Source: Neorhizobium galegae
GTDB taxonomy: Bacteria > Pseudomonadota > Alphaproteobacteria > Rhizobiales > Rhizobiaceae
Assembly: GCF_021391675.1 (NCBI RefSeq)
Contig: NZ_CP090096.1
Span: 1 to 64,000, forward strand
Length of the DNA stretch: 64,000 nucleotides
Reading direction: 5' to 3'
Below are positions 5,901 to 42,120 of the stretch, in pieces. Numbering within the stretch: position 1 is the stretch's first letter; each line of letters begins with the position of its first letter. A model generated the notes under the pieces. It did not search any database. It had not been told where the DNA came from and saw only the letters and a program-made list of their open reading frames with translations. The position numbers were made by a program, and so were the translations under genes.

Positions 5901-8900
5901 CTGACCGCCAAGGCGGCCTTCGACGCCAACCTCGCGAGCCACCGTGGTGACCTGGTCGGCGAAGGTCGCGAGCGTATTGGTCATGTTATTGATGGTTTCG
6001 GCAAGTGCCGCGACCTCACCCTTGGATGCGACGGTAAGGTTCTGCTTGAGATCGCCGTTGGCAACGGCCGTCACCACCTTGACAATACCGCGCACCTGCT
6101 CCGTCAGGTTGGCGGCCATGACGTTGACCGTGTCTGTCAGATCCTTCCATGTGCCGGCGACGCCGGGCACCTGCGCCTGGCCGCCGAGCTTGCCTTCGGT
6201 GCCGACTTCGCGCGCCACGCGCGTGACTTCGCCCGCAAAGGCATTGAGCTGGTCCACCATCGTGTTGATCGTGTTCTTCAGTTCGAGAATTTCGCCCTTC
6301 ACATCCACGGTGATCTTGCGCGACAGATCGCCTCGCGCGACGGCTGTTGTCACTTCGGCAATATTGCGGACCTGCGTGGTGAGATTGGCAGCAAGCAGGT
6401 TGACGTTGTCAGTCAGGTCTTTCCAGGTGCCGGCGACTCCCGGCACGACCGCCTGGCCGCCAAGACGGCCATCGGTGCCGACCTCGCGCGCCACGCGCGT
6501 CACTTCGCCCGCAAACGATCGAAGCTGATCGACCATGGTGTTGAGGGTGTCTTTCAACAGCAGGATTTCACCGCGAACATCGACGGTGATCTTGCGCGAC
6601 AAGTCGCCATTGGCGATCGCGGTGGCCACCTCGGCGATATTGCGGACCTGGGCCGTCAGGTTGCCGGCCATCGAGTTGACGCTGTCGGTCAGATCCTTCC
6701 AGGTACCCGCGACGCCCGACACCTGCGCCTGGCCGCCGAGCTTGCCTTCAGTACCGACCTCGCGTGCCACGCGTGTCACTTCACCGGCAAAAGCGTTCAG
6801 CTGATCCACCATCGTGTTGATGGTGTTTTTCAGTTCCAGGATTTCGCCCTTCACGTCGACGGTGATCTTGCGCGACAGGTCTCCCCGTGCGACCGCAGTC
6901 GTCACTTCCGCAATGTTACGCACCTGGCCAGTAAGGTTGGAGGCCATCGAGTTGACGTTCTCGGTCAGATCCTTCCAGGTGCCGGCAACACCCGGTACCT
7001 GAGCCTGGCCGCCGAGCTTGCCTTCGGTGCCCACTTCACGCGCCACACGGGTCACTTCCGAGGCGAACCGGTTGAGCTGGTCCACCATCGTGTTGAGCGT
7101 CTCCTTCAGCTGAAGGATTTCCCCCTTCACGTCGACGGTGATCTTGCGCGACAGGTCGCCGTTGGCGATCGCCGTCGAGACCTCGGCGATGTTGCGGACC
7201 TGGGCCGTCAGGTTGCCGGCCATCGAGTTCACCGAATCTGTCAGATCCTTCCACGTGCCGGCAACACCCAGAACGTTCGCCTGGCCCCCGAGCCGCCCTT
7301 CAGTCCCGACCTCTCGGGCGACACGCGTCACCTCCCCGGCAAAGCCGTTGAGCTGGTCCACCATCGTGTTGATGGTTTCCTTCAGTTCCAGAATTTCGCC
7401 GGACACCGTCACGGTGATCTTCTTCGACAGGTCGCCCTGGGCGACGGCGGTCGCAACTTCGGCGATGTTGCGCACCTGACCCGTCAGGTTGGAGGCCATC
7501 GAATTGACCGAGTCGGTCAGATCCTTCCAGGTCCCGGCGACGCCGCGCACGTTGGCCTGACCGCCAAGCCGACCTTCGGTCCCCACTTCGCGCGCGACAC
7601 GCGTTACTTCGGATGCAAACGCGTTCAGCTGGTCGACCATGGTGTTGATGGTCTCCTTCAGCTCCAGGATTTCACCCTTCACATCGACGGTGATCTTCTT
7701 CGACAAGTCGCCATTGGCGATTGCCGTGGAGACCTCGGCGATGTTGCGGACCTGTGCCGTCAGGTTCCCGGCCATGGAGTTGACGTTCTCCGTCAGGTCC
7801 TTCCAGGTTCCGGCGACGCCGCGAACGTTTGCCTGGCCGCCGAGCCGTCCTTCCGTCCCCACTTCGCGGGCGACGCGAGTGACTTCTGAGGCGAAGGCAT
7901 TCAGCTGATCGACCATCGTGTTGATGGTTTCTTTCAGCTCCAGGATTTCGCCGGAAACCGTGACCGTGATCTTCTTCGACAAGTCGCCGTTGGCGATTGC
8001 CGTCGAGACCTCGGCGATGTTTCGCACCTGCGCCGTAAGATTGGACGCCATGGAATTGACGTTGTCGGTGAGGTCCTTCCAGGTTCCGGCGACGCCCGGC
8101 ACCTGGGCCTGGCCGCCGAGACGGCCTTCGGTGCCGACTTCACGGGCGACACGCGTCACCTCGCCGGCAAAGCCGTTGAGCTGGTCGACCATTGTGTTGA
8201 TGGTTTCCTTGAGTTCCAGGATTTCGCCGGACACATCAACGGTGATCTTGCGTGAAAGGTCGCCACGGGCGACGGCGGTCGTGACCTGGGCGATGTTTCG
8301 CACCTGCGCCGTCAGGTTACCGCACATTGCATTGACCGAGTCGGTCAAATCCTTCCACGTACCGGCAACGCCCGGCACGAGCGCCTGGCCACCCAGCTTT
8401 CCTTCTGTACCGACCTCCCGGGCAACGCGCGTCACTTCCGATGCGAAGGAGCGGAGCTGGTCGACCATGGTGTTGATGGCTTCCTTCAGCTGCAGGATTT
8501 CGCCGCGCACATCGACGGTGATCTTTTTGGAAAGATCGCCGTTGGCAACCGCAATCGTGACGTCTGCGATATTGCGGACCTGAGCGGTCAGGTTCGAAGC
8601 CATCGAGTTGACGCTCTCGGTGAGGTCTTTCCAAACGCCGGTCACTTCCGGAACCTGGGCCTGTCCACCCAGCTTGCCATCGGTACCGACCTCGCGGGCG
8701 ACACGGGTCACTTCGGATGTGAACACACTCAGCTGCTTGATCATCGTGTTGACGATCTCGGCTGAACGCAGGAACTCCCCTTTCAAGGGTCTCCCATCGA
8801 CGTCAAGCGGAACCGTTTGCAGCAGGTCGCCCTTGGCGACCGCCGTGATCGTCCGGGTAACGGCGGTCGTCGGCCAAAGCAAATCGTCGATCAGGGTATT

Positions 8901-9236
8901 GATCGACCCTTCCATGTCCGCCCAGGCTCCGTCAGAGAGGCCAAATCTGACGCGCGTTCTGGTGCGTCCATCCCGCCCGACCACCTGACCGACATTTTCG
9001 AGCTGCGCCGCCATTTTCTGGTTGGCCGCGATGATTTCGTTCAATGTATCTGCAATTTTTCCGGTGACGCCGGTCATGTCGGACCGCATCCGGACCGAAA
9101 AGTCTCCCCGTCTCATCGCCAGGAGAGCTTCAAGCAGGGCGCGGGCGTCTTCGTCCGCCATCACCGCCACATCTACGTCCGAAAGGTCGTCCGAATCCAC
9201 GCCACTGCGCTGAACGTCATTGCCCTGTCTAGCCAC
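2937..9236 (-). CDS. Giant soluble poly-HAMP hybrid histidine kinase with three receivers
   Basis: This 2099-residue protein has no signal peptide or membrane segment. After two divergent HAMP-like units ([15 protein letters not shown]) come eleven tandem 92-residue units, about residues 170-1180. Each carries a canonical HAMP half ([12 protein letters not shown]) and a second half marked by GTWKDLT. A GAF domain (about 1210-1360) and a glutamine-rich coiled coil (about 1370-1425) follow. The HisKA H-box is [15 protein letters not shown] (histidine near 1432), then HATPase_c with [13 protein letters not shown]. Three receivers follow, with acceptors in [18 protein letters not shown] and [11 protein letters not shown]. 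The architecture resembles fungal group III kinases (Nik1/Os-1), which sense osmotic or cell-wall stress, but with more repeats. The start is GTG after a GGGGGG ribosome site. The adjacent receiver-kinase gene is the likely relay partner. Confidence 0.93.
5690..8725 (-). repeat. Eleven in-frame 276-bp tandem repeats encoding HAMP pairs
   Basis: The codons for WKDLT recur at an exact 276-bp spacing: the first at about 8630 and the last at about 5870, a distance of 2760 bases, or ten periods. This gives eleven units of 92 residues inside the giant kinase. The central units are nearly identical at protein level and very similar at DNA level, while the last two (10 and 11) are more diverged. No linker is lost or gained, so the phase of the coiled HAMP stack is preserved. 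The array is a likely substrate for unequal recombination. Confidence 0.93.
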
Positions 9237-9293
9237 AGAACCCCCCTGCCCTAAAATCCAGTTTAATCTAGTGCGCGATTTTAAAAAGACTAC

Positions 9294-9313
9294 AGGCTGG
9301 GCGTACCCAGCCT
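9294..9313 (-). other. Hairpin in the leader of the HAMP kinase gene
   Basis: AGGCTGGG and CCCAGCCT form a perfect 8-bp stem around a four-base loop, 58 bases upstream of the GTG start at 9236. On the minus strand it is followed after a few bases by a TTTTT run, so it could act as an attenuator or terminator in the leader of the kinase mRNA, or end transcripts arriving from upstream on that strand. Confidence 0.45.
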
Positions 9314-9414
9314 CCTGCGTCAGTTGGAGCGCGGGACAGGGCCGACCAAGACCGATCCACTTTCAAAATCGGCGTATCCAACCGACCCCTCCGCGACAGA
9401 CGAGGAGCAGAAGA

Positions 9415-9465
9415 TTTGTCAAATATGTCAGTTAGCTGATTGACAATATGAGCAAATTTCGCTCA
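9415..9465. promoter_or_regulatory. Control region of the four-carbon acid sugar kinase and gntR genes
   Basis: Two copies of TTGTCAA face each other (9416-9422 on plus, 9440-9446 on minus), and the second also provides a TTGACA -35-like box. Just downstream lies a 17-base imperfect palindrome with TGAGC / GCTCA arms (9449-9465). The same TTGTCAA element recurs as an inverted pair in the other control region of this island (14593-14599 and 14715-14721), which makes it a candidate operator for the GntR protein encoded at 10528. No convincing -10 box is seen. Confidence 0.4.
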
Positions 9466-9483
9466 AAAAGATAACAACAGATT

Positions 9484-10524
9484 ATGTGGTCCATTATGCT
9501 GGTTATTCTTGCTGACGACCTGACTGGCGCGCTTGATTGCGCGGCGCCGTTTGCCGGCAGGGGTTTGCATACTGAAATCGCGTTGAGCGTCGAGGCTATC
9601 GGATCGGCCTTGCAACTGAGGCCGGCGGTTCTTTCAATTAACCTCGGATCTCGGGAAGTCGAGGCGGAGGCTGCGCGGCAGGCAACTGCTGCGGCCCTGT
9701 CGTCCCTGCCGTCGGGCATCGTTCTGTTCAAGAAGATCGATTCCCGCCTCAAGGGCAATATCGCCGCAGAGCTCGACGCCACGCCTTTTCACCTGGCGCT
9801 CGTCGCACCTGCGATACCTGATTTCGGACGAAATGTCCGAATGGGACATGTCGAAGGTTTTGGCCTGGACGAGCCGCTGAATGTCGCCGACGCGCTTGGC
9901 GTTCATGCCGAACGCGCCATCATTCCCGATACGCTTTCACAGGAAGACATGCCCGCGGCTCTGACAATCGGCCGCGGGGCCGGGGCCGATCTTCTTGTCG
10001 GCGCCAGGGGTCTCGCCGAGGCGCTGGCCTGTCACATGACAGACCGTCCGGTCGCCGAACCGGCCCTTCCTGAACCCGGCCCCGCCCTTTTTGTCATCGG
10101 CTCGAGAGATCCAATCACGCTGGCGCAAGTCGAGGAACTGCGGCAGGCGGTCGTGCTTGACTACATTGCCGCGCCGAACGGGCGCCCGGAGAAGATCGCA
10201 CCGCCCCAGCATTCCGTGACGCTGGTTCAGGCCACGCCGGATGGAAAGGACGATCCGCCGCTTCAGGTATCGGACAGGCTGGCGGCGAGCATAGTCCCGG
10301 ACATGACAGCGCCGGTCGCCACCCTGCTCCTTTCGGGCGGCGCGACTGCCGAGGCTGTCTTGAAGGCAATGAATGTTTCGAGGTTCCGGCTTCTCGGCGA
10401 ATGTCTGCCGGGCCTTGGCTTGGCTTATATCGAAGGCCAATGCATCATCGCCAAATCCGGCGGATTCGGCACGCCGGGCACATTGTGCGAGATAGCAAGA
10501 ATAGCCATGGGCGAGAAGGGTTGA
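9484..10524 (+). CDS. Four-carbon acid sugar kinase family protein (DUF1537 / OtnK-DtnK type)
   Basis: Family members phosphorylate D-threonate, D-erythronate, 3-oxo-tetronate or related four-carbon acid sugars with ATP. The N-terminal substrate domain opens with ILADDLTGALDCAAPFA, and KKIDSRLKGN lies near residue 82, both family signatures. The C-terminal nucleotide domain shows LLLSGGATAEAV and AKSGGFGTPGTL. At 346 residues it is shorter than the roughly 420 usual for the family. The missing length appears to be in the middle (after about residue 170), so substrate choice may differ. The family start would be MLVILADD at 9496, and ATG 9484 is an equally possible start; no clear ribosome site separates them. 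It is followed after three bases by a GntR regulator, and PdxA2, its usual metabolic partner, is encoded 2 kb away. Confidence 0.85.
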   Translation: MWSIMLVILADDLTGALDCAAPFAGRGLHTEIALSVEAIGSALQLRPAVLSINLGSREVEAEAARQATAAALSSLPSGIVLFKKIDSRLKGNIAAELDATPFHLALVAPAIPDFGRNVRMGHVEGFGLDEPLNVADALGVHAERAIIPDTLSQEDMPAALTIGRGAGADLLVGARGLAEALACHMTDRPVAEPALPEPGPALFVIGSRDPITLAQVEELRQAVVLDYIAAPNGRPEKIAPPQHSVTLVQATPDGKDDPPLQVSDRLAASIVPDMTAPVATLLLSGGATAEAVLKAMNVSRFRLLGECLPGLGLAYIEGQCIIAKSGGFGTPGTLCEIARIAMGEKG

Positions 10525-10527
10525 ACG

Positions 10528-11232
10528 ATGGGGCTTGAGAGCGGTACTGCCCGCAAGGGCCTTCCCGATATCGTCTTTGAACGGATGTTGCGCGCGATCA
10601 AGTCGGGGGCATACAGGCCGGACGAACGGTTGCCGACCGAACATGAGCTGGCCAACGAATTCGAAGTGTCGCGGCCGATCATCCGGGAAGCGCTGAGACG
10701 GTTGCGCGAGCAGGGACTGATCTATTCGAGGCGCGGTGCCGGCAGCTTTGTGCGTGCGCTCGGCCTACGTGAGCCGCTCGGATTCGGCCAGCTGGAAAAC
10801 GTCGCCGATCTCCTCAACTGTTATGAGTTTCGCATGACGCTTGAACCTGCTGCAGCAGCGGCAGCGGCAGGGCGCCACGACAAGGAAAGCCTGGCGGCGA
10901 TAAAGCGGGCCCTGGAATTGCTGCGCGATGCCACGAACCGCCAGGCCCATCGCGAAGACGCCGACTATCAGTTCCATCTGGCTATCGCGCGAGCGGCTCA
11001 GAACAGCTACTTCTCGACGGCGATGGAGGCCCTGAAAGATCACATTGCCATGGGCATGAAATTCCACGGAGCCTCCGTGAAAAGAGAGGCAACCGGGCTG
11101 GCGAAAGTGTTCGGCGAGCATGAGGCGATTGCCGATGCAATCACACGCGGAGACCAGGAAGCAGCGCGACAGTTGATGCTGGACCACTTGAAAGGTTCAC
11201 GCGAACGACTGTTTCAATCGTCGCACCGGTGA
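10528..11232 (+). CDS. GntR family transcriptional regulator (FadR/FCD subfamily)
   Basis: This 234-residue protein has an N-terminal winged helix with LPTEHELANEFEVSRPIIRE and a C-terminal all-helical FCD ligand domain (about 95-225), which normally binds a carboxylate or sugar-acid effector through a metal held by Asp and His. Candidate ligands include the histidine in DADYQFHLAIARAA and EHEAIADAI. It starts three bases after the kinase stop and is cotranscribed with it. It most probably represses the whole 9.4-20.9 kb island and responds to a pathway intermediate. The inverted TTGTCAA pairs in the two control regions of the island are its candidate sites. Confidence 0.9.
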   Translation: MGLESGTARKGLPDIVFERMLRAIKSGAYRPDERLPTEHELANEFEVSRPIIREALRRLREQGLIYSRRGAGSFVRALGLREPLGFGQLENVADLLNCYEFRMTLEPAAAAAAAGRHDKESLAAIKRALELLRDATNRQAHREDADYQFHLAIARAAQNSYFSTAMEALKDHIAMGMKFHGASVKREATGLAKVFGEHEAIADAITRGDQEAARQLMLDHLKGSRERLFQSSHR

Positions 11233-11278
11233 ACCCTGTAGATGTCATCCGGCAATCCACAGCCGGATGATCGTCACT

Positions 11279-12397
11279 TCAAAATGCCGCCTCGTAGATA
11301 TCCAGCACATCGCGGACACTCATTTCGGCCGGGTTGTTATCCATCAGCCGACGGATCGCATGCGCCTCCGAAGCGTAGAGGGAAAGCTCTTCCCGCCTGG
11401 CGCCATGAGCCGCCAGCGACATCTCAATGCCAAGCGCCCCGCAGAAGTCGCATGCCGACGATCGCAATTCGTCGGAGGAGAGATTGTCACCGAGACCGAG
11501 TGCTACCGCCACTTCCGCGGTCTTCGCGGCAGCGACAGACTGGTTGAAAGCCAGTACATGCGGGAAAACGATGGCATTCGCCAACCCGTGCGGCAGGTTG
11601 AGCCGCGTCCCCAGCGGATAGGCGATTGCGTGGCCGGCCGCAGTATTGACGGGGCCGAGGCAAATGCCGCCGTAATAGGAAGCAAGCATCAGTCCTTCGC
11701 GGGCCTCCGTATCCTGCCCGTCCTTCACCGCCCGCGCCAGATATCGGCCGACAAGCCCGAATCCCATGCGCGCAAAGCCGTCGATCATCGGATGGGCGCG
11801 GCGATTGGTGAAGGCTTCGACGCAATGCGCCATGGCATCGACACCCGTCGCGGCGGTCACGGCCGGAGGCACCGAATAGGTCAGTTCAGGATCGAGCACC
11901 GCGAAATCGGCGATCATATGCGGGCTTTCAACCGCGATCTTGGTCCGCTTGACCGGATCGGTGATGAGCGAACGGATGCCTGCCTCCGAGCCGGTACCCG
12001 CGGTGGTCGCGACCTGGGCAAGCCGCGTGCGGCGGCCGGCGACGCGATTGGGACCGGCAACGTCTTCCAGGGTCTGCTCGGAATCCCACAGCACCGCGAC
12101 AAGCTTGGCAACGTCCAACACGGATCCGCCGCCGAGGCCGACGATCAGTTGCGGACGAGCCTTGCGGGCAACCGCCAGCGCAGCATCCAGCGTCGAGGTA
12201 TCCGGCTCGCCCGGAATGGCGTCGAATACCGAAAACCGGCCGGGTAACTGCAGACGGTCGGCGAAGCCAGCCGTGATCGGCGTGGCAATGACCAGGGTCG
12301 AGGCGACGTCGCCAGCCCAGGCGCCAACCTGACTAATCGTGCCGGCACCGACGGCGAGACGCAGCGGCTGGTGGAGTGTGATGGGTGCAATGGCCAT
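11279..12397 (-). CDS. Iron-containing alcohol dehydrogenase family protein
   Basis: This 372-residue member of the iron alcohol dehydrogenase superfamily has a nucleotide-binding GGGSVLDVAK near residue 88 and GTGSEAGIRSLITD further on. The metal-ligand region contains DAMAHCVEAF and HGLANAIVFPHVLAFN. The family reduces or oxidises aldehydes, ketones and hydroxyacids with NAD(P); maleylacetate reductase and 4-hydroxybutyrate or lactaldehyde-type enzymes belong to it. It starts at ATG 12397, 12 bases after the end of pdxA2, with AAGGAAAG as ribosome site. It is the last gene of the sialidase-pdxA2-adh operon. A role in oxidising a C3 or C4 hydroxy intermediate of this pathway is inference. 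Confidence 0.87.
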   Translation of the reverse strand: MAIAPITLHQPLRLAVGAGTISQVGAWAGDVASTLVIATPITAGFADRLQLPGRFSVFDAIPGEPDTSTLDAALAVARKARPQLIVGLGGGSVLDVAKLVAVLWDSEQTLEDVAGPNRVAGRRTRLAQVATTAGTGSEAGIRSLITDPVKRTKIAVESPHMIADFAVLDPELTYSVPPAVTAATGVDAMAHCVEAFTNRRAHPMIDGFARMGFGLVGRYLARAVKDGQDTEAREGLMLASYYGGICLGPVNTAAGHAIAYPLGTRLNLPHGLANAIVFPHVLAFNQSVAAAKTAEVAVALGLGDNLSSDELRSSACDFCGALGIEMSLAAHGARREELSLYASEAHAIRRLMDNNPAEMSVRDVLDIYEAAF

Positions 12398-12409
12398 GAC
12401 GCGCTTTCC

Positions 12410-13357
12410 TTACCGGACCCCCGCCACGAGCTTGCGCGCGTAGGCGATAGCAGAATTCATGTTGCCGTGATTGGCGATCCCCTTGCCGGCGATATCGAAC
12501 GCGGTGCCGTGATCGACGGAGGTGCGGTCGATCGGCAGATCGACAGAAACGTTGACGGCCGTGTCGAAGGCGACGAGCTTGATCGGGATATGACCCTGAT
12601 CGTGATACTGCGCGACGACTAGGTCGAAGGCGCCCGAATAGGCCCGGTGGAAAACCGTATCGGCGGAAATCGGACCATGAACCTCGATGCCTTCGGCGCG
12701 AGCGGCCGCCACGGCCGGCGCGATCTGATCGTCGTCCTCCGTGCCGAAGAGACCGTTTTCGCCGCAATGGGGATTGATGCCGGCAACCGCAATGCGCGGA
12801 CGCTCATAACCGATGCGCTTCAGATGCGCGTCACCGGCGCGGATCGTCGCCAGAACCCGTTCCGTCGTGGCGCGCCGGATAGCTTCCTGCAGGGAGACGT
12901 GCGTGGAGACATGGATCACCTTCAGGCGATCGGACGCCAGCAGCATGTATGCCGCTGCCGAACCGGTAAGGCTGCGCAACATGCCCGTGTGACCATCGTA
13001 GTGATGGCCCGCAAGGTTGAGCGCTTCCTTGTTGATGGGCGCGGTGACGATGCAGCCGATCGAGCCGGCCTCGGCATCGCGTACGGCGCGCTCGATGAAG
13101 CGGAACGCCGCATCGCCGGCGACCGCCGACAACTGCCCCCAGGGCAGAGGCGCTCCCTCCACCAGAAGATCGACCACGTAAGGCGTGAGGTCGAGCGCGA
13201 CCCCGACCGCATCGCGGGCCGCCTCCAGTGTCGGCAGATTGCCGTAGACCCGCGTTGCGGAGCGATCGGCGTCCGACATCTCGGCCAGCGCCTTGACTGT
13301 TACTTCCGGACCGACGCCACAGGGGTCCCCCATGGTGATACCAATGATATTGCTCAT
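12410..13357 (-). CDS. pdxA2: PdxA family dehydrogenase, probable 4-phospho-D-threonate/erythronate dehydrogenase (PdxA2)
   Basis: PdxA2 enzymes oxidise and decarboxylate 4-phospho-D-threonate or -erythronate to dihydroxyacetone phosphate with NAD. The 315-residue protein begins [15 protein letters not shown]. It carries the metal-binding histidines of the family in [20 protein letters not shown] and [13 protein letters not shown]. Biosynthetic PdxA (vitamin B6) shares these motifs. I call the catabolic form because a DUF1537 kinase and FadR-type regulator lie nearby, the usual partners of PdxA2. ATG 13357 is preferred over TTG 13360: GGGAG stands about seven bases upstream and the ATG overlaps the stop of the upstream sialidase-like gene (TGATG), which implies coupled translation. 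Confidence 0.88.
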
Positions 13358-14550
13358 CAAATTCTCCCGTCAGTCGCGTCTGCCCAGCCCGAAGCCAGGC
13401 TCACGTATTTGATTGCCCGCCTGTGATAGGTATAGGCGATGTGCAACGTCCCGTCCGGCGCTTCCAGTAGCCACGGATAGGACATTTCCTTGTTCCGGCC
13501 ATCGGTGGAATCGTTGGACAGGCAGGTGCCCGGCCCGTCTTCGATCAGGATACGGACTGGGAAGCCTAGACCACCATCATTCGAAATGCAGACACAGACC
13601 GGCGCCCGCGGCACACCCCAGACGGGCACGCAGCCGCCCGTGGGATCGGCATCGGGTCTTTCGTCACTCTCGCCGAGTTCGTCGTAAAGCGAAGCACGGC
13701 GATCGTTCGACTGAGCCGCGTTTACCGGGTTGCAGATCATCGCAAGCCGACCGTCCTTCAACCGAATAACCGCGATCGAGGAATTGTTGTTCGGCACATC
13801 CGTTGCCTCGGGCACCGACCAGGATCGGCCGCCGTCGGCGCTTTCGCTCCGATAGACGAAATCCGCCTGCCTTCGGCGGAAAAATGCCGCAAGACCGCCT
13901 GTCGGCAAGGCAACGGGACTCATGTGGACGCAGCCGGTCGATTGCGGCAATTCTTCGAGGCGCCAGGTTTTCCCGGCATCTGTCGATAACCCGATTGCCG
14001 CCGTGTCATGGCTTCCATTCCACTTCTGGCCCGGCCGTTGAACGCAGCGGAAGATCGGCAAAAGCCATGCGCCGTCATCCCGCACCGTCAGCTGAGCCCG
14101 GATAAAACATCCTTTCGGCAGTCCGAGATAGGTGCCCGCCTCCGCTGTCAGCCTTGTCGGGTCGCTTTGATCGCGCCGGATCTCGGCCATCCGGATACAG
14201 CATTCGTCCTGATTACCGGAAGGCTGCGACGTGTGGAAAAGCCAGAGCCGGCCATCGGGCGCGGTAAACAGAACCGGGTTCTGCTCCGAATGTGCGTCAT
14301 CGAAGCTCAGCCGCTGCGGCGGGCCCCAAAGATCCGAGCCGGGCACGAGGACGGACGCGAAAATGGATATGTCGGACTTGCCTTCCAGCGAGCCACCGAA
14401 CCAGGCGCAGATCAACGCGCCGTCGGCCAGGAGATGCAGGAAGCTTGCATGGTTCTGCACCATGGGGGAAGGCAGGAAGGCTTCGCGCCTGCCGGCGGTC
14501 ATCATCCGTACCGTGCCGGTCATTGCTGCCGCTATTTCATCAGGGCTCAT
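13357..14550 (-). CDS. Sialidase-like (BNR/Asp-box) hydrolase, cytoplasmic
   Basis: This 397-residue beta-propeller protein of the exo-alpha-sialidase superfamily has Asp-box motifs (S-x-D-x-G-x-x-W) at STDAGKTW and SADGGRSW and a degenerate one at SNDGGLGF. Near the N terminus [17 protein letters not shown] resembles the first strand of bacterial sialidase-like proteins. There is no signal peptide, so it should act in the cytoplasm on an imported substrate. The first gene of the sialidase-pdxA2-adh operon, it starts at ATG 14550 after GGAGAG and diverges from an oligopeptide-type ABC importer. Whether the substrate is a sialoside, another ketosidic nonulosonate or an unsaturated uronide is unknown; related propeller proteins have other activities too. 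Confidence 0.8.
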
Positions 14551-14983
14551 AAAGCTCTCCTCTCGGCGTTGAGAATTGCCAGAAACACAAAGTTGTCAAG
14601 TTTTATAATATGCATAAGCCGCGGATTTCGGGTATTGTCATCAGCATAACAATATGGAAAATAACGGTATTTTTAAGAATGAATTTTTCTCGAAAAATTA
14701 CATCACAAAACAATTTGACAAAGTGCGCAGGACGGAACATGGTTTGGGGAGAATAGCACAGGAGGAGTAGGCGATCGCGGTGCAGCGAAATATGTGGCCC
14801 TGCCGTCGGGAGAAATTTTCGGTCCAAGCTCCGAATACTCCACGATAGAGCCTCTAAATCGCCATCGGTCTTCCTTCACAGGTCGGCTCGCCAATCACCA
14901 AATCAGCCGTTCATCCACCGGGCCACGGCAGGTCGATCGGGACGGTGTCTGATCAATTTATATTCACTTGGGAGGTGAGCCAC
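14551..14983. promoter_or_regulatory. Divergent control region between the sialidase operon and the ABC importer operon
   Basis: This 433-base region has no gene that I can support. It is A+T-rich between 14580 and 14725, unlike its surroundings, as expected for promoters. It contains TTGTCAA at 14593-14599 and TTGACAA at 14715-14721 (an inverted pair), matching the pair upstream of the kinase-gntR genes. The minus-strand TTGACA at 14593-14598 could be the -35 box for the sialidase operon and TTGACA 14715-14720 that for the importer. No good -10 boxes are seen. A GGGAGGTG ribosome site ends the region. Confidence 0.5.
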
Positions 14984-16480
14984 ATGAAGAAGATGCTGAT
15001 GACCGCGCTGATCCTGGGATCTGCGCTTGCGCCGGCTTACGCAGGGTCCGGTCCTATCAAGATCGTGCTGCCCGAAGAGGCCGATCTGCTGGAGCCTTGC
15101 ATGGCGACCCGTTCCAATATCGGCCGTATCATCATGGAGAATGTCAGCGAAACCCTGACCGAGCTCGATGTTCGCGGCAAGAAGGGCGTCATGCCGCGCC
15201 TTGCCGAAAAATGGGAGCAGACCCAGGACGGCAGCTGGCGGTTCCATCTCCGCCAGGGCGTCAAGTTCTCCAACGGGACGACGTTCGACGCCAAGGATGT
15301 GAAGCATAGCTTCGACCGCGTGATGAGCGACAAGAACGCCTGCGAATCCCGCCGCTATTTCGGCGGCATGAAGATCAGCGCCAATGTCGTCGATCCCTAC
15401 ACGATCGATTTCAAGGCGGACCCGGCCCAGCCGATCCTGCCTTTGCTGATGTCGCTGGTGACGATCGTTCCGGAAGAAACCCCGCTTGCATTCATTCGCG
15501 AGCCGATCGGAACCGGCCCCTATGCGCTGAAGAACTGGACGCCGGGTCAGCAGATCGTGTTGGCCGCCCGCAGCGACTACTGGGGCGCCAAGCCGCAGGT
15601 GACCGAGGCGACCTATCTCTTCCGCTCCGATCCGTCGGTGCGTGCGGCGATGGTGAAGGCCGGTGAAGCGGACCTTTCTCCGTCGATCTCGCAGCTGGAT
15701 GCAACCGATCCGAAGACCGATTTCTCCTATCTCGACAGCGAGACGGTCTATCTGCGTCTCGACCACAACATTCAGCCGCTGAACGACGTGCGGGTTCGCA
15801 AGGCGCTCAATCTGGCCATCGATCGTCAGGCGTTTATCGGCACACTGGTGCCGGATGGTGCCGTGCTGGCGACGGCGCTGGTTCCGCCGACCACGCAGGG
15901 CTGGAACCCGGACGTCAAGGTGTTCCCCTATGATCCAGCAGGTGCCAAGAAGCTTCTCGCGGAGGCCAAGGCCGCCGGCGTGAAGGTCGATACGCCGATC
16001 ACGCTGATCGCCCGCACGGCAAACTTCCCGAACGTCACCGAAATCATGGAAGCGGTTCAGTCGCAGCTCCAGGAAGTCGGCTTCAAGGTCGATCTGAAGT
16101 TTGTCGAAGTGGCCGAGCACGAGAGCTACTATTCCAAGCCTTTCAAGGAAGGTCGTGGCCCGATCATCGTCGCCGCCATGCACGACAACTCCAAGGGTGA
16201 TCCGTCCTTCACCATGTTCTTCAAATATGCCTCTCAGGGTACGCAATCGGGCTTTTCCGACCCCAAGGTCGACGACCTGATCAAGCGCGCCTCGGCGGCA
16301 GTCGGCGACGAACGTGCGAAGCTCTGGTCGCAGCTGATCGCCTACCTGCATGACGACGTGGTTGCAGACGCCCTTCTCTTCCACATGGTCGGCTTCTCGC
16401 GAGTTTCGCCGCGTATCGAATTCAAACCGACGATCGCTACAAATTCGATGCTGCAATTGTCCGAGATCGGCATCAAATAG
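14984..16480 (+). CDS. ABC importer solute-binding protein, family 5 (dipeptide/oligopeptide/nickel type)
   Basis: This periplasmic receptor delivers its ligand to the permeases encoded downstream. The 498 residues start with a signal peptide (MKKMLMTALILGSALAPAYA). The SBP family 5 core then shows LTELDVRGKKGVMPRLAEKW, WRFHLRQGVKFSNG, GTGPYALKNWTPG and VRKALNLAIDRQAFIG. I prefer ATG 14984 to an upstream GTG (14945) because GGGAGGTG lies seven bases before it and the signal peptide then begins at the first residue. Family 5 receptors bind peptides, nickel, glutathione, oligosaccharides and even sialic acid, so the ligand cannot be inferred from family alone; the neighbours suggest a sugar-acid or glycoside. 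Confidence 0.92.
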   Translation: MKKMLMTALILGSALAPAYAGSGPIKIVLPEEADLLEPCMATRSNIGRIIMENVSETLTELDVRGKKGVMPRLAEKWEQTQDGSWRFHLRQGVKFSNGTTFDAKDVKHSFDRVMSDKNACESRRYFGGMKISANVVDPYTIDFKADPAQPILPLLMSLVTIVPEETPLAFIREPIGTGPYALKNWTPGQQIVLAARSDYWGAKPQVTEATYLFRSDPSVRAAMVKAGEADLSPSISQLDATDPKTDFSYLDSETVYLRLDHNIQPLNDVRVRKALNLAIDRQAFIGTLVPDGAVLATALVPPTTQGWNPDVKVFPYDPAGAKKLLAEAKAAGVKVDTPITLIARTANFPNVTEIMEAVQSQLQEVGFKVDLKFVEVAEHESYYSKPFKEGRGPIIVAAMHDNSKGDPSFTMFFKYASQGTQSGFSDPKVDDLIKRASAAVGDERAKLWSQLIAYLHDDVVADALLFHMVGFSRVSPRIEFKPTIATNSMLQLSEIGIK

Positions 16481-16521
16481 TCAGCGGGAACCGGCTGCCG
16501 GATTTCCAATCACGACCCAAA

Positions 16522-16545
16522 GGCGGCGGGTACCTATCCGCCGCC
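16522..16545 (+). other. Intercistronic hairpin after the binding-protein gene
   Basis: GGCGGCGG and CCGCCGCC form a perfect 8-bp all-GC stem around an eight-base loop, between the binding-protein stop (16480) and the first permease start (16564). There is no T run, so it more likely protects the upstream mRNA from 3' exonucleases or attenuates, which raises binding protein relative to permease. Confidence 0.6.
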
Positions 16546-16563
16546 ATAATAGTCGAGGGCGAC

Positions 16564-17478
16564 ATGCTCAGTTTCATTCGTAAGCGCTCCGTGGCGAGCT
16601 TGATTTCACTGGTCGGGCTGCTCGTGCTGGTGTTCTTCCTGTCCCGCCTGACCGGCGATCCGGCCGCGCTCTTCCTGCCCGTCGAAGCTTCGGCCGAAAT
16701 GAAGCAACAGTTCCGCGAACTTCACGGGTTGAACGACCCGCTGATGGTGCAGTTCGGACGTTATGTCGGCGACGTGGTGACCGGGAATCTCGGTGAATCG
16801 TTGCGCAAGGCACGGCCGGCGCTGGGTGTGGTGACGGAAGCCTTCGTGTGGACGCTCTGGCTTGCCGTGATCACCATGTCGCTCGTCACGGCGGCCGCCA
16901 TCGTCGTCGGCTCGCTCGCCGCTTTTCGTTCCGGTGGTTTCTTCGACCGGCTCTCCTCGATCATCTCACTCGTTGGCGCGTCGGTTCCCGATTTCTGGCT
17001 GGCCATCGTCGCGATCGTCGTCTTCTCCGTTAACCTCGCATGGCTACCGACCTCCGGTACGGGGTCGATCCTGCACTGGATCCTGCCGATCGGCGTGCTG
17101 TTCGTCCGTCCCTTCGGCATTATCGTGCAGGTGGTGCGCGGCTCGATGATCGGCGCCCTATCCTCCGCCTATGTGAAGACGGCCCGCGCAAAAGGCGTCA
17201 AGGCCGGCCCGATCATCTTCATCCACGCACTGCGCAACGCCATGCTGCCGGTCATCACCGTCATCGGGGACCAGGCAGCGAGCCTCCTGAACGGCGCAGT
17301 GGTGGTCGAGACCATCTTCGGTTTCCCGGGGGTCGGCAAGCTGATGATCGACTCGATCCTGCAGCGGGATTTCAACGTCGTCCTTGCCGCGATCCTGGTG
17401 ACCGCGCTGGCGATCTTCCTCATGAACCTGCTGATCGACCTTGCCTATGCGCTTCTCGATCCGCGCATCCGTCATTGA
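16564..17478 (+). CDS. ABC importer permease, DppB/OppB type
   Basis: This 304-residue inner-membrane subunit has six predicted transmembrane segments. The first is at residues 10-30 (ASLISLVGLLVLVFFLSRL), followed by the long periplasmic loop typical of DppB proteins. The EAA loop that contacts the ATPase appears as VKTARAKGV with HALRNAMLPV after it. The C-terminal segment ends in LLDPRIRH, a common ending for this subfamily. It lies 83 bases after the binding-protein gene and 11 bases before the partner permease, in one operon. Confidence 0.93.
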   Translation: MLSFIRKRSVASLISLVGLLVLVFFLSRLTGDPAALFLPVEASAEMKQQFRELHGLNDPLMVQFGRYVGDVVTGNLGESLRKARPALGVVTEAFVWTLWLAVITMSLVTAAAIVVGSLAAFRSGGFFDRLSSIISLVGASVPDFWLAIVAIVVFSVNLAWLPTSGTGSILHWILPIGVLFVRPFGIIVQVVRGSMIGALSSAYVKTARAKGVKAGPIIFIHALRNAMLPVITVIGDQAASLLNGAVVVETIFGFPGVGKLMIDSILQRDFNVVLAAILVTALAIFLMNLLIDLAYALLDPRIRH

Positions 17479-17489
17479 GGAGCGCAACG

Positions 17490-18413
17490 ATGAGTGTTTC
17501 CACCTCCGATACGACGATCACCCACGAGCCCGCCTTCCCGGTCCGCATGGCGCGAATGCTCTGGGCCGACAAATTCGCGCTCTGCGCGGTCATCTTCCTG
17601 CTCGTCATCATCGTGCTTGCCCTGATCGGGCCGTCCTGGCTCGGTGAGCTCGCCACCAAGCAGAATCTGCGTGGCCGCAACCTCGCACCGTTCGACTGGA
17701 GCCGTGAATGGGTATGGTGGATGGGGGCCGACGCTCTCGGCCGGCCGCTGCTCGCCCGCATCATCGTCGCGACGCAGAATACGATCATGGTCGCCGCCGG
17801 CGCGGTGATCCTGTCGTCGGTCACCGGTACTCTGCTCGGCCTCGTCGCCGGGTTTTCATCACCTCGCGTCGGGCAGGTGATCATGCGCCTGGCGGACGTG
17901 ATCATGTCCTTCCCCTCGCTGTTGATTGCGGTGATCGTCCTTTATCTCTTGGGTTCCTCGATCCTGAACCTGGTCGCCGTCCTGTCGATCACCCGCATCC
18001 CCGTTTACCTGCGCACCACCCGCGCCGAGGTGCTGGAAATCCGCGAGCGGATGTTCGTGCAGGCAGCGCGGGTGATGGGCGCTTCGCAGAACCGCATCCT
18101 GTTCCGCCACATCCTGCCGGTCGTTTTCCCGACGCTTACCACGCTGGCGACGCTGGACTTCGCCTATGTCATGCTTGCCGAAAGCGCGTTGTCCTTCCTC
18201 GGCATCGGCATCCAGCCTCCCGCGATCACCTGGGGCCTAATGATTTCCCAGGGACGCCAGTATCTTACCAATGCCTGGTGGCTCTCGTTCTGGCCCGGGC
18301 TGGCAATCATCATGACCACCTTGTCGCTCAACCTTTTGTCGAACTGGCTGCGCATCGCGCTCGACCCCGTTCAGCGCTGGCGCCTGGAAATGAAAGGCCG
18401 AAAGAATGGCTGA
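17490..18413 (+). CDS. ABC importer permease, DppC/OppC type
   Basis: This 307-residue inner-membrane partner of the preceding permease opens with the OppC N-terminal region, whose first membrane helix is FALCAVIFLLVIIVLALIG. It then shows MGADALGRPLLARII, typical of DppC proteins. The EAA loop is AARVMGASQNRILFRHILP. The start ATG 17490 is preceded by TGAGGAG at suitable spacing; a longer upstream reading in the same frame runs through the previous gene and is not real. Its 3' end overlaps the ATPase gene by eight bases, indicating coupling. Confidence 0.93.
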   Translation: MSVSTSDTTITHEPAFPVRMARMLWADKFALCAVIFLLVIIVLALIGPSWLGELATKQNLRGRNLAPFDWSREWVWWMGADALGRPLLARIIVATQNTIMVAAGAVILSSVTGTLLGLVAGFSSPRVGQVIMRLADVIMSFPSLLIAVIVLYLLGSSILNLVAVLSITRIPVYLRTTRAEVLEIRERMFVQAARVMGASQNRILFRHILPVVFPTLTTLATLDFAYVMLAESALSFLGIGIQPPAITWGLMISQGRQYLTNAWWLSFWPGLAIIMTTLSLNLLSNWLRIALDPVQRWRLEMKGRKNG

Positions 18414-20022
18414 GCACCTGCTGGAAGTCCGCAACCTCTCGGTCGAATTCCACACGGCCGCCGGCGTCGTGCATGCCGTGCGAAACATCTCCTATCATCT
18501 CGACCGCGGCGAGACGCTGGCGATCCTCGGTGAAAGCGGGTCCGGCAAGTCGGTTTCGTCAGCGGCGATCATGAACCTCATCGACATGCCGCCCGGGCGG
18601 ATCAGCGCCGGGCAGATCCTGCTTGACGGCAAGGACCTGCTGACCATGCCGCCCCAGGCGCGCCGCGAGGCAAACGGGCGGCGGATCGCCATGATCTTTC
18701 AGGACCCGCTCAGCCATCTGAACCCGGTCTATACCGTCGGATGGCAGATCCGCGAGGCGATGACGACCCATGGCATGCCGGCCGAACAGGCCAGGAGCGA
18801 AGCTTTGCGCCTCTTGACGCGGGTCGGCATTCCCGATCCGGAAGGCGCCATGGGCAAATATCCGCACGAATTTTCCGGCGGCCAGCGTCAGCGGGTGATG
18901 ATTGCGATGGCGCTTGCGCTGCGCCCCGATCTGCTGATTGCCGATGAGCCTACCACCGCGCTTGACGTGACGGTCCAGGCCGAGGTGCTGGCGCTGTTGA
19001 AGGAGTTGCAGCGGGAAACCGGCATGGGCGTGCTGATCATCACCCACGATCTCGGCGTGGTGGCCGAAATCGCCGATCGCGTGGTCGTCATGGAAAAGGG
19101 CGAGCTGGTCGAGACCGGCACGGTCCGCGACGTCTACAAGAACCCGACGCATCCCTATACCAAAAAGCTGATCGGCGCCGCCCCCGGAAAAGGCGAGATG
19201 CACATCGCACAACGTTCGGGCGAACCGATGCTCAGCGTCCGGGACATACGCAAACGCTACGGCTCTTTCGATGCGCTGAAGGGCGTCTCGTTCGACCTCA
19301 GGGCTGGCGAGACCATGGCGATCGTCGGGGAAAGCGGCTCGGGAAAATCGACTCTCGCCCGTGTTCTCCTGAGGCTGGACGAGCCGGACGCCGGCACGGC
19401 ACACTGGAAGGGGCGCGATCTTTTTCAGCTCTCGCCATCGGAACTCTACAAGCTCCGGCGCGACCTCCAGATGGTGTTCCAGGATCCCACCCAATCTCTC
19501 AATCCGCGCATGACGGTGTTCCAGCTCGTATCCGAAGCATGGGCCATCCATCCCGATATCCTTCCCAAACGCCGTTGGCGGGAACGGGTCGCGGAACTGC
19601 TGCTACAGGTGGGCCTTTCGGCCGAGCACATGAGCCGTTATCCGCACCAGTTCTCGGGCGGCCAGCGGCAGAGGATTGCAATCGCTCGCGCGCTTGCGCT
19701 CGAACCGCAGCTCATCGTCTGCGACGAGGCGGTATCGGCGCTCGACGTGTCGGTGCAGGCCCAGGTCATCGCGCTTCTCGACAAGCTGCGCCGGGACATG
19801 GGCATCTCCTTCATCTTCATCGCCCACGACCTGCCCGTCGTTCGCGACTTCGCGGATTACGTCATGGTGATGCAGAAGGGCGAAGTGGTGGAAATGGGAA
19901 CGGTCCGGGAGATCTTCGAGGCGCCCCGTGAAGCCTATACAAAAGCGCTCCTGGCGGCGAGCCTCGATCCGGACCCGGATGTTCAGGCCGAACACCGGGC
20001 AGCCCGTCTCAAACGTGCATGA
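18406..20022 (+). CDS. ABC importer ATPase with two fused nucleotide-binding domains (DppD-DppF fusion)
   Basis: The 538 residues hold two complete ATP-binding cassettes that power the importer. The first has Walker A GESGSGKS near residue 44, signature [14 protein letters not shown] and Walker [13 protein letters not shown]. The second has [14 protein letters not shown] near 308, [14 protein letters not shown] and [12 protein letters not shown]. Note Glu-Ala in the second Walker B (DEAVSALD) where DEP is more usual, a frequent variant in DppF-like domains. Each cassette keeps the oligopeptide-type C-terminal region ([23 protein letters not shown]). The fused arrangement differs from the second oligopeptide-type system at 45.7-47.7 kb, which has separate genes. 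Confidence 0.94.
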
Positions 20023-20058
20023 CACACCGCCGAAGGGCGGATAAGCGGAGTTGATTGA

Positions 20059-20940
20059 ATGACCAGAAATGCCTTTGTCGCACTCGTGACCTGCTTCAAC
20101 GAAGACGAGACGATCAATTTCGAGGCGACCCGCGCCCAGGTGCGCCGGCAGGTGGCGGCGGGCAACAACATCATGTGCGCCGGCACCAACGGCGATTTCA
20201 CGGCTCTCACCCACGAAGAAAAGATCCGCCTGACCGAACACGTGGTTGACGAGGTTGCGGGTCGCGCCAAAGTCATCGTCAATGCCGGGATGCCGGCAAC
20301 CTTCGAGACGGTGCAACTCGCCAGAGAGTTTGACAGGATCGGCGTCGACGGCATCGCCGTCATCACCCCCTTCTTCATCGCCTGCACCCAGGATGGGCTG
20401 GTCCGCCATTTCTCGACGGTCGCGGATACGGTCAAGACGCCGGTCTATCTCTATGACATCCCCGCCCGGACCCAGAACCATATCGAGCCGGCGACGGCCG
20501 CAAAGCTTGCCGGGCACGGCAATATAGCCGGCATCAAGGATTCTGGCGGCGCTCAGGAAACTCTGGCAGCCTACCTTCAGGTCTCGAAAGAAAACCCGGG
20601 CTTCGAGGTCTACTCCGGTCCCGACCACCTCGTCCTGTGGTCGCTGCAGAACGGTGCGGCTGGCTGCATATCAGGCCTCGGAAACGCGCTGCCGCACGTG
20701 CTCGCCGGCATCCTTGCAGCCTTCAACTCAGGCGACATTGCGGAAGCGGAGCGTCAGCAGGCGATCTATACGGCCTTTCGCACGGAGCTCTATGCGCTGG
20801 GTTTTGCACCCGCCATGGTCAAGCGTTCGCTTTACCTGCAGGACAAATCAGTCGGCGCGAGCAGGCAACCTGCCCTGCTTCCAGACGAGGCTCAGGACGA
20901 GAAAATAAGAGAGATCCTGAAAAAATACGAGCTGCTGTAG
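20059..20940 (+). CDS. Dihydrodipicolinate synthase / N-acetylneuraminate lyase family aldolase
   Basis: This class I (Schiff base) TIM-barrel aldolase or lyase has 293 residues. The catalytic lysine is in AGIKDSGG and the conserved tyrosine in YLYDIPART. The pyruvate-carboxylate loop that is normally GTTGE reads GTNGDF here, a change at the residues that contact the 2-oxo acid or second substrate. Family members include DapA, NanA, 2-keto-3-deoxygluconate aldolase, ketodeoxyglucarate dehydratase and 4-hydroxy-2-oxo acid aldolases. It follows the ABC importer genes by 36 bases in the same operon and shares a control region with the sialidase-like gene, so a nonulosonate- or keto-deoxy-acid lyase is attractive but unproven. 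Confidence 0.87.
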   Translation: MTRNAFVALVTCFNEDETINFEATRAQVRRQVAAGNNIMCAGTNGDFTALTHEEKIRLTEHVVDEVAGRAKVIVNAGMPATFETVQLAREFDRIGVDGIAVITPFFIACTQDGLVRHFSTVADTVKTPVYLYDIPARTQNHIEPATAAKLAGHGNIAGIKDSGGAQETLAAYLQVSKENPGFEVYSGPDHLVLWSLQNGAAGCISGLGNALPHVLAGILAAFNSGDIAEAERQQAIYTAFRTELYALGFAPAMVKRSLYLQDKSVGASRQPALLPDEAQDEKIREILKKYELL

Positions 20941-21042: not shown

Positions 21043-22107
21043 CTATTTGGTGATCACGAAGACCGCGTCCGGCGCCCAGCTGATACAGCATTCCTCGCCT
21101 TCCTTGATGATCACCACATCGGCGCCGAGCACCCTGACTCGCATGGGGATATCCCCTGCCCGTCCGATCACGAGCGCATTGTCGCCGTAGTTGACGATCG
21201 TCTCGACGATCATGCGGACGTTCTTGCTGCCCTCGACCGGGCTGCGCGACAGCTTGATATGCTCCGGGCGGATCAGAAGCGTCACCTTCTGGCCGTCGGC
21301 AAGAGCATCCTTCCCAGCGTATTGGAAGGCTCCAAGCGTCGGGTTTTCGGCCGTTTTGCCGGCCCCGCTGGTAATGATTGCCGGGATCAGGTTGCTCTCG
21401 CCGATGAAGGAAGCGACGAAGGAGGTCTGCGGGCGATGGTAGATATCCAGCGGCGCTGCGACCTGCTCGATGCGTCCCTTCTCGAACACCACGATGCGAT
21501 CGGACATCGACATGGCTTCCGACTGGTCGTGGGTCACGAAGATGGTCGTCACGCCGAGGCTGCGCTGGATGCGCTTGATCTCGATCTGCATCTGCTCACG
21601 CAGGTTCTTGTCGAGCGCGCCGAGCGGCTCGTCGAGCAGAAGCAGTGAAGGCTCGAAAACAAGGGCGCGAGCCAGCGCGACTCGCTGCTGCTGCCCGCCG
21701 GACAGTTCCTTCGGATGACGATGACCAAAACCCTTGAGGCCGACGAGAGACAGCATATCCTCCGCCTGCCTCAGGCCCTGCGAACGGCTGACGCCACGCA
21801 TCTGCAGGGGAAAATAGACGTTTTCGACCGCCGTCTTGTGCGGAAACAAGGCGTAGTTCTGGAACACGATGCCGATATTGCGCTCATGCGGCGCAAGCTC
21901 GGAGATCGACCGACCATCGATTTCCACCTTACCGCTGCTCGCCTTTTCGAAACCGGCAATGATCATCAGGGTCGTCGTCTTGCCCGAGCCACTCGGCCCC
22001 AGGAAGGTCACGAACTCCCCCTTGTCGACCGACAGGCTGACATTGTCGAGCGCCGTGAAATGCCCGTAGGCCTTGGTGATGTTGGAGAGTTGCAGGTAGT
22101 TCGTCAT
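21043..22107 (-). CDS. ABC importer ATPase, spermidine/putrescine (PotA) type
   Basis: This 354-residue ATPase has Walker A GPSGSGKTTTLMI near residue 39, signature [15 protein letters not shown], Walker B LLLLDEPLGALD and the H-loop VTHDQSEAM. A C-terminal TOBE-type regulatory domain follows (about 270-354, with TLLIRPEHIKL). This layout is typical of PotA, FbpC and related importers. ATG 22107 is preceded by AAGGAC at about seven bases; the open frame upstream of it has no coding character. It is the last gene of the eight-gene minus-strand operon that begins with the IclR gene at 29111. Confidence 0.93.
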   Translation of the reverse strand: MTNYLQLSNITKAYGHFTALDNVSLSVDKGEFVTFLGPSGSGKTTTLMIIAGFEKASSGKVEIDGRSISELAPHERNIGIVFQNYALFPHKTAVENVYFPLQMRGVSRSQGLRQAEDMLSLVGLKGFGHRHPKELSGGQQQRVALARALVFEPSLLLLDEPLGALDKNLREQMQIEIKRIQRSLGVTTIFVTHDQSEAMSMSDRIVVFEKGRIEQVAAPLDIYHRPQTSFVASFIGESNLIPAIITSGAGKTAENPTLGAFQYAGKDALADGQKVTLLIRPEHIKLSRSPVEGSKNVRMIVETIVNYGDNALVIGRAGDIPMRVRVLGADVVIIKEGEECCISWAPDAVFVITK

Positions 22108-22138
22108 TGGAAGTCCTTGGGGAAGCCCTTGGGTATGT

Positions 22139-22942: not shown

Positions 22943-22948
22943 GTTCGG

Positions 22949-23797: not shown

Positions 23798-23832
23798 TGC
23801 CGTTCCCTTTTTATGGCAGGCAGGGTCGTTGC

Positions 23833-23861
23833 GGCATCGCGCGGTCGTTCCGCGCGATGCC
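23833..23861 (-). other. Intercistronic hairpin after the binding-protein gene
   Basis: GGCATCGCGCGG and CCGCGCGATGCC form a perfect 12-bp stem around a five-base loop, between the binding-protein stop (23895) and the PotB-type start (23797). No T run follows on the minus strand, so mRNA stabilisation or partial attenuation is more likely than full termination. Confidence 0.65.
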
Positions 23862-23894
23862 GTCCAGCAGGTCAAGTTGATCCAGGAGAGTGGA

Positions 23895-24935: not shown

Positions 24936-24950
24936 TGCAGTTCTCCTCTT

Positions 24951-28347: not shown

Positions 28348-28352
28348 GACCG

Positions 28353-42104: not shown

Positions 42105-42120
42105 GAACTTCGAGTTCCAT
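42103..42120. promoter_or_regulatory. IclR-type inverted repeat overlapping the IclR start codon
   Basis: On the minus strand TGGAACTCGAAGTTCA forms an inverted repeat (GGAACT / AGTTC arms around CG-A) close to the IclR-family operator pattern TGGAAAT-N-ATTTCCA. It lies in the 211-base region (42105-42315) between the IclR gene and the importer; I see no other clear element there. Confidence 0.5.

Follow-up and report, generated by a model that had tools for sequence, protein, structure and literature searches.

A conserved gene cluster of Neorhizobium galegae and other proteobacteria that may break down the pectin sugar Dha through a four-carbon acid

A gene cluster at positions 9415..20940 of a 64,000-nt stretch of Neorhizobium galegae DNA (contig NZ_CP090096.1; hereafter the window) combines enzyme families known from several described systems. 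One is the breakdown of D-threonate and D-erythronate, in which a DUF1537 kinase and PdxA2 are the known pair that converts a four-carbon (C4) acid sugar into dihydroxyacetone phosphate (DHAP). The last two steps predicted here are alike, and the PdxA of the cluster is near solved PdxA2-type enzymes; in contrast, the C4 acid is predicted to arise in the cell from a seven-carbon (C7) diacid, the kinase is short in those rhizobial and Paracoccus loci that we inspected, and a sialidase-like enzyme, a DapA-family lyase and an iron-type alcohol dehydrogenase (Fe-ADH) are added. Sialic acid (nan) catabolism shares with the cluster a sialidase fold, a Schiff-base lyase of the dihydrodipicolinate synthase (DHDPS) family, a YhcH neighbour in several lineages and the exchange of importer types, whereas our genome has no NanE, the cluster has no NanK or Nag enzymes, the predicted product is a C4 acid semialdehyde and two residues of the sialidase-like active site appear changed. 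With the galactarate/glucarate pathway the common logic is an aldolase, a semialdehyde reductase and a kinase working on a 2-keto-3-deoxy diacid, except that the diacid would be C7 instead of C6 and that a DapA-family lyase, Fe-ADH, DUF1537 and PdxA2 replace GarL, GarR and GarK. Finally, the degradation of rhamnogalacturonan II (RG-II) by Bacteroides, with a GH143 Dha hydrolase and a GH78-BNR_2 protein distantly related to ours, concerns the same predicted sugar, 3-deoxy-D-lyxo-heptulosaric acid (Dha), one of the two sialic-acid-like sugars of RG-II; there a polysaccharide is degraded, whereas here an apparently cytoplasmic protein would serve the use of the released sugar.

We propose that the five enzymes of the cluster (kinase, PdxA2-type dehydrogenase, Fe-ADH, sialidase-fold protein and lyase) very probably form one pathway through a C4 acid. 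That its substrate is Dha, a seven-carbon acid sugar of plant pectin, is a reading that we favour with slightly better than even confidence. A preliminary description of the locus had suggested a new route through a C4 acid sugar fed by the DapA-family lyase. In its outline this idea of a new route is likely correct, and the role of the lyase holds as the simplest reading. The route that we infer would begin with the importer, which likely takes up either Dha or a small glycoside of it. The ketosidic bond would be cleaved by the sialidase-fold enzyme, after which the lyase would act on open-chain Dha and release pyruvate and 2,3-dihydroxy-4-oxobutanoate. Fe-ADH would then reduce this semialdehyde to D-threonate, the DUF1537 kinase would form D-threonate 4-phosphate, and PdxA2 would oxidise and decarboxylate the latter to DHAP and CO2.

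The grouping of the five enzymes is conserved well beyond the window. With the kinase domain alone as reference, all five are found within 5.2-12.7 kb in 88 of 103 related loci, that is, in 73/80 loci found by scanning bacterial and archaeal species genomes and in 15/23 chosen others (this count excludes L101, the short stretches L107-L117 and L089-L096). The claim of the preliminary description that these genes work as a unit is thus supported despite much reordering, and the lack of conservation that it had named as grounds for refutation is clearly not what is seen. Among the 15 misses, L106, L130 and L131 are distant paralogues and eight (L025, L056, L060, L068, L075, L080, L086 and L124) are short or cut-off stretches; L100 and L118 have no nearby kinase, and L121 and L129 lack several enzymes. 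Nine further loci (L132-L140) comprise four with all five enzymes (L132-L135), two with four (L138, L139), one with two (L136) and two with one (L137, L140). The scan itself found the sialidase-like protein at 143 places, the best 80 of which, by title nearly all Rhizobiaceae plus some Labrys, Brucella endophytica and one Rhodobacteraceae metagenome-assembled genome, make up the detailed survey; 308 plasmid records also match, distant matches included.

The unit occurs in alpha-, beta- and gammaproteobacteria in several gene orders. Most of the 80 best loci are arranged as in the window. On plasmids of R. etli (p42b), R. johnstonii (pRL9) and Pleomorphomonas, gntR-kinase-OppFDCBA diverges from dapA-sialidase-FeADH-pdxA, and in Paracoccus the order is sialidase-pdxA-dapA-FeADH-kinase-gntR. 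Genome G704, with a sialidase-like protein that shares 95% identity with one named uncultured Pseudomonas, carries dapA-FeADH-kinase-pdxA-2HADH-MFS-SSS-sialidase-SDR-deoR on one strand. Pantoea and related genomes show FeADH-dapA-SSS-sialidase-(YhcH)-SDR with pdxA divergent, as is the kinase outside Pantoea, and in Cupriavidus kinase and PdxA are fused into one 775-aa protein. A DUF1537 gene is present in 12/12 genomes tested. An SDR-family oxidoreductase gene also lies near the sialidase gene in many loci with an SSS symporter (e.g. L100, L119, L122 and L132). The distribution of the sialidase-like family is patchy: matches occur in 5/385 genomes at class level (1e-10; our genome included, and G086 and G286 being distant paralogues without the unit), in 11/398 at phylum level (1e-30; our genome included), and in 13/295 genomes of one order and 2/244 of another (1e-60). 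The cluster is real and old. In two lists of 120 relatives, plant-associated names are frequent among the rows that carry a name: Agrobacterium, Sinorhizobium, the Pseudomonas syringae group, Pectobacterium, Ralstonia, Kosakonia and Erwinia.

What might the substrate be? Lyases of the DHDPS family typically yield pyruvate and an aldehyde, which an alcohol dehydrogenase can convert to an alcohol. For a C4 acid sugar to result, a carboxylate has to be present at the far end of the aldehyde, and the lyase substrate would therefore be a 2-keto-3-deoxy-heptarate. The natural compound of this kind known to us is Dha. By stereochemical arithmetic, retro-aldol cleavage of Dha (D-lyxo) followed by one reduction gives exactly D-threonate. 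The same arithmetic takes 3-deoxy-D-manno-octulosonic acid (Kdo) to D-arabinose and 3-deoxy-D-arabino-heptulosonic acid (DAH) to erythrose, neither of them a C4 acid. Both were set aside as substrates: D-arabinose would leave the kinase and PdxA2 without use, and erythrose would have to be oxidised, a step that no gene of the ten seems fit to provide. Dha is described as a seven-carbon sialic acid analogue (PMC6811678), and for this reason a sialidase fold and a YhcH neighbour fit it. In plants, Dha is reported to be confined to RG-II (PMC12168206), and side chain D of RG-II ends in arabinofuranose (PMC12282258). Judging from paper titles, green algae are another possible source of Dha.

The lyase itself belongs to the DHDPS/N-acetylneuraminate lyase family: it matches PF00701 with 187 bits and keeps the Schiff-base Lys (IKDS) and the catalytic Tyr (YDIP). 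It scores 194 bits with the NCBIfam dapA model (cut-off 206), and 112 and 91 bits with two N-acetylneuraminate lyase models (cut-offs 281 and 382). A role in lysine synthesis was rejected, as the dapA cut-off is missed and a stronger DHDPS match (300 bits) lies elsewhere in the genome. Alignments show the DapA-site residues Lys, Tyr and Arg to be kept. In DapA, Arg138 binds the far carboxylate; its position holds Arg or Lys in 7/7 aligned lyases of one group, type A ('GTNG..YxIPA[RK]'). DapA itself forms a C7 product that resembles Dha, 2-keto-4-hydroxy-6-amino-pimelate. A second, unlike DHDPS-family group, type B ('G[TS]TGEANS..YHIPQ/MxxG'), is found in the unit of other loci, and the service of two unlike groups argues that a lyase is required.

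The kinase, the sole DUF1537 gene found in its genome, matches SBD_N and NBD_C above the Pfam cut-offs yet partially, and its motifs DDLTGA, KKIDSxLKG, SGGxTA and KSGGFG are kept in the alignment. The DUF1537 kinases of three loci with an ABC importer are short (340-354 aa in the window, L098 2025-3089 and L104 14159-15181), versus about 407-442 aa in L119, L122, L132 and L134; in the short forms the middle of the protein is reduced and the sugar and nucleotide motifs are kept. PdxA scores 286 bits with the solved PdxA2 2hi1 and 280 with the D-threonate 4-phosphate dehydrogenase 6e85, compared with 164 for the 1ps7-type PdxA; its best match is 4jqp, named 4-hydroxythreonine-4-phosphate dehydrogenase (296 bits). 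A role in vitamin B6 synthesis was dismissed, because a separate PdxA is present elsewhere in the genome. Fe-ADH keeps, in the five sequences aligned, the D/H/H/H metal-ligand motifs, and its NCBIfam relatives, all below cut-off, include 4-hydroxybutyrate dehydrogenase and lactaldehyde reductase.

The sialidase-like protein has the fold of a six-bladed sialidase propeller. In GH33 sialidases the active site comprises a catalytic Tyr with a Glu partner, an Asp acid/base and an Arg triad. Local alignments with NanB-type sialidases place R225 at a triad Arg, H209 at the Glu and E56 at the Asp, and Y358 at the catalytic Tyr, this last in a weak stretch of the alignment. E56, H209, R225 and Y358 are invariant across 47 sequences. 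The Bacteroides GH78-BNR_2 relative shares 24-28% identity with it; on a Bacteroides finegoldii plasmid (L106, 2226-6092) a GH78 rhamnosidase is fused with a BNR_2 domain and adjoins GH140, in what looks like an RG-II locus.

Read strictly, the preliminary description makes an oligopeptide-type importer a defining part of the pathway, whose substrate would hence be a larger acidic glycoside. The window does hold a complete family-5 ABC importer set (SBP_bac_5, two permeases and a double ATPase), and the rhizobial and Paracoccus loci have one too, with ATPases fused or split. In 19 loci without an ABC importer, however, its place is taken by an SSS symporter (12), a TAXI-TRAP (4), a DctP-TRAP (1) or a CitMHS carrier (1), with none seen in L136. 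The importer is thus outside the conserved core of the cluster, and that part of the preliminary description is not supported; carriers of the SSS, TRAP and CitMHS types would suit small acids. That a larger acidic oligosaccharide is imported, with this importer defining the route, appears very improbable to us: the family-5 matches of the binding protein include one that binds chitin oligosaccharides, but the better matches bind peptides, nickel, haem and agrocinopine. Judged by gap size, 24/80 loci have an EamA/DMT-type transporter gene between the sialidase and binding-protein genes (e.g. L024 8889-9842), five of these inserts having been read; in L104 such a gene lies at 8874-9752.

Of the 19 loci without an ABC importer, 11 have a YhcH-family gene (PF04074, anomerase) next to the sialidase gene, several of the 11 being closely related; in a profile search all other loci examined were negative, apart from shorter copies of the same places. 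E. coli YhcH is reported to open the sialic acid ring for the aldolase (PMC8141875), and the position of the gene points to a ring-forming 2-keto-3-deoxy acid as the aldolase substrate.

Several observations weigh against Dha as the substrate or against individual steps of the route. Type B lyases lack the carboxylate-binding Arg, and other heptulosarates, e.g. the D-xylo form, likewise give D-threonate. In the sialidase-fold protein E56 replaces the acid/base Asp and H209 the Glu partner of the nucleophile, and the first triad Arg was not located in the alignments; with two usual catalytic residues apparently changed, ketosidase activity is not secure. Carriers for small solutes would leave the role of a glycosidase unexplained in the SSS, TRAP and CitMHS lineages. 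The kinase is short and scores 114 bits with the best NCBIfam D-threonate kinase model (NF047819; cut-off 450), which weakens its name and not its predicted reaction, and PdxA passes the general pdxA model only (TIGR00557, 344 bits, cut-off 290; PRK03371, 312 bits, cut-off 583). GH28 genes lie near just three cluster loci (L055, L065 and L133), perhaps at chance level; being so few, GH28 polygalacturonase neighbours were dropped as support. The two Pantoea loci without a nearby kinase also count here, G539, the genome of L118, having two DUF1537 genes elsewhere, as do the absence of a nearby Fe-ADH in L138 and L139 and the incomplete sets of L121 and L129, which hold the sialidase gene with an SSS symporter. 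A few named relatives are not plant-associated: Sporomusa and, among the plasmid-scan matches, Klebsiella, Proteus (both ~26% identity) and Haladaptatus.

In an alternative reading the same five steps act on another 2-keto-3-deoxy-heptarate or ulosonic diacid, with the sialidase-fold protein serving as an anomerase, lactonase or anhydro-sugar hydrolase instead of a glycosidase. Other stereoisomers also yield D-threonate or D-erythronate, the active site seems to depart from GH33 and many lineages have small-acid carriers. Even so, we consider this rather unlikely, although well worth weighing: we know of no such acid other than Dha that is common in plants, and the sialidase-like gene is kept in all 11 loci with YhcH, which argues that it is no mere stand-in for the YhcH anomerase. 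The sialidase fold, the DHDPS-family lyase, the YhcH neighbours and the regulator, whose best NCBIfam match is a NanR-type model (below cut-off), could also be explained by nonulosonate or Kdo catabolism, with a lyase resembling N-acetylneuraminate lyase releasing N-acetylmannosamine, mannose or arabinose and the C4 acid genes serving something else. This is very improbable, since NanE has no match in our genome and 18/20 genomes that carry a relative of the sialidase gene have none over cut-off, Pfam detects no NanK or NagA/B family among the ten genes, Kdo gives a pentose and not a C4 acid, and kinase and PdxA remain in the unit in 88 of 103 loci. The preliminary description, which fixed no single substrate, had counted sialosides and nonulosonates among the compounds to test; the absence of NanE disfavours them, and sialic acid was rejected on this ground and on its product chemistry. 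Least probable of all is plain D-threonate or D-erythronate breakdown by the kinase-PdxA2 pair, known for both acids, beside unrelated genes, because lyase, Fe-ADH and sialidase-like gene travel with the pair through re-arrangements and through the kinase-PdxA fusion. The Dha pathway is the reading that we retain.

In the window the ten genes are all open and form three transcription blocks: kinase-gntR (+), sialidase-PdxA-FeADH (-) and binding protein-permease-permease-ATPase-DapA (+) (Table 1). Pfam and NCBIfam profile searches confirmed the gene families and positions first assigned to kinase, regulator, Fe-ADH, PdxA, sialidase-fold protein, importer and lyase.

Table 1. Genes and predicted operators of the cluster, with predicted roles and the basis of each assignment.
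Feature	Position	Strand	Basis or remark
Predicted operator TTTGTCAAA	9415..9423	.	Upstream of kinase gene; motif enriched in promoter regions of relatives, seldom at kinase
Short DUF1537 C4 acid sugar kinase, 346 aa, predicted D-threonate 4-kinase	9484..10524	+	Pfam SBD_N and NBD_C, both partial
GntR/FCD regulator, predicted cluster control	10528..11232	+	Pfam GntR and FCD; adjoins kinase in relatives too
Fe-ADH, predicted C4 semialdehyde reductase	11279..12397	-	Pfam
PdxA2-type dehydrogenase, predicted D-threonate-4-phosphate to DHAP and CO2	12410..13360	-	Bit scores against solved PdxA2-type enzymes
BNR_2/sialidase-fold protein, predicted ulosonic-acid ketosidase	13357..14550	-	No signal peptide visible by eye
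Predicted operator TTTGACAAA, divergent promoter gap	14714..14722	.	Motif count in window and enrichment in related loci
Family-5 solute-binding protein, ABC importer	14984..16480	+	Pfam SBP_bac_5; start at ATG with GGGAGGTG upstream
ABC importer permease 1	16564..17478	+	Pfam
ABC importer permease 2	17490..18413	+	Pfam (longer frame scanned); ATG at 17490
Fused double ATPase, ABC importer	18406..20022	+	Pfam
DapA-family Schiff-base lyase, predicted Dha aldolase	20059..20940	+	Pfam DHDPS

The two halves of the cluster had been thought to be under shared control. The motif TTTGNCAAA occurs twice in the 64 kb, at 9415 and 14714, both in promoter gaps of the cluster, which agrees with this idea; the window alone is weak evidence, as the chance mean is 0.70 and two copies are reached in 13/100 shuffles. 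The two promoter regions of 80 related loci, 68,288 bp in all, contain the motif 60 times, compared with 17 times in 1,558,911 bp elsewhere, which makes it about eighty times denser there (the regions include the inserted transporter gene where present, and the counts are not independent because the loci are related). It is present in 53/80 sialidase/binding-protein gaps versus 5/76 kinase upstream regions, so that control shared with the kinase half is weak in relatives. The GntR protein would be the one that binds the TTTGNCAAA sites; the type of regulator varies among loci, GntR or DeoR.

The cluster lies between a long hybrid kinase gene and a polyamine-type ABC importer. Both adjoin it in the closest loci alone (L009-L011, plus L012 for the kinase) and are thus outside the unit. 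The hybrid histidine kinase (2937-9236, -; 2099 aa) contains a motif of a 92-residue unit that recurs 11 times with exact spacing, followed by kinase and receiver parts; by eye we take these repeats to be poly-HAMP-like, resembling fungal Nik1-type kinases. The polyamine-type importer (21043-26108, -), of high identity beside the cluster only in L009-L011, adjoins a membrane dipeptidase gene (Peptidase_M19). Two adjoining open frames of 240 and 610 aa (25922-28470, -) have no Pfam match at 1e-5, and a further family-5 solute-binding protein gene lies at 42103-43836 (+).

No description of a Dha catabolic route was found in the literature on Dha/heptulosaric acid and RG-II, most subscription papers lying outside the search, so that a published route is possible. 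Searches for a C4 kinase with sialidase and DHDPS in rhizobia, for a Kdo/Dha hydrolase and for D-threonate with Pectobacterium or sialidase gave nothing useful in the literature searched. The cluster is present on pSymB of Sinorhizobium meliloti 1021 (L097). In reports on S. meliloti, SMb20141/42 are Dpp-like (PMC2651895) and SMb20144 is linked to organic acids/alcohols (PMC2848018), but their location in the cluster could not be shown; similarly, a symbiosis genome-wide association study lists four-carbon acid sugar kinases and a DHDPS-family protein of pSymB (PMC12904279) that could not be tied to it.

If the proposed pathway is correct, it would name an aldolase, a D-threuronate reductase and a ketosidase for Dha. 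It may be the first bacterial Dha route, present in rhizobia, agrobacteria and other plant-associated proteobacteria, together with a new class of intracellular sialidase-fold ketosidases in which Glu/His replace Asp/Glu; we put this forward tentatively, with confidence somewhat short of even. It would also explain the 'sialidase' annotation at the 143 species-genome places and in the 308 plasmid records. RG-II is conserved across plants, and the lack of means for making or measuring Dha is a limit named in plant RG-II work (PMC12168206). The cluster would serve as a rhizosphere marker of pectin use and would supply enzymes with which to make and measure Dha.

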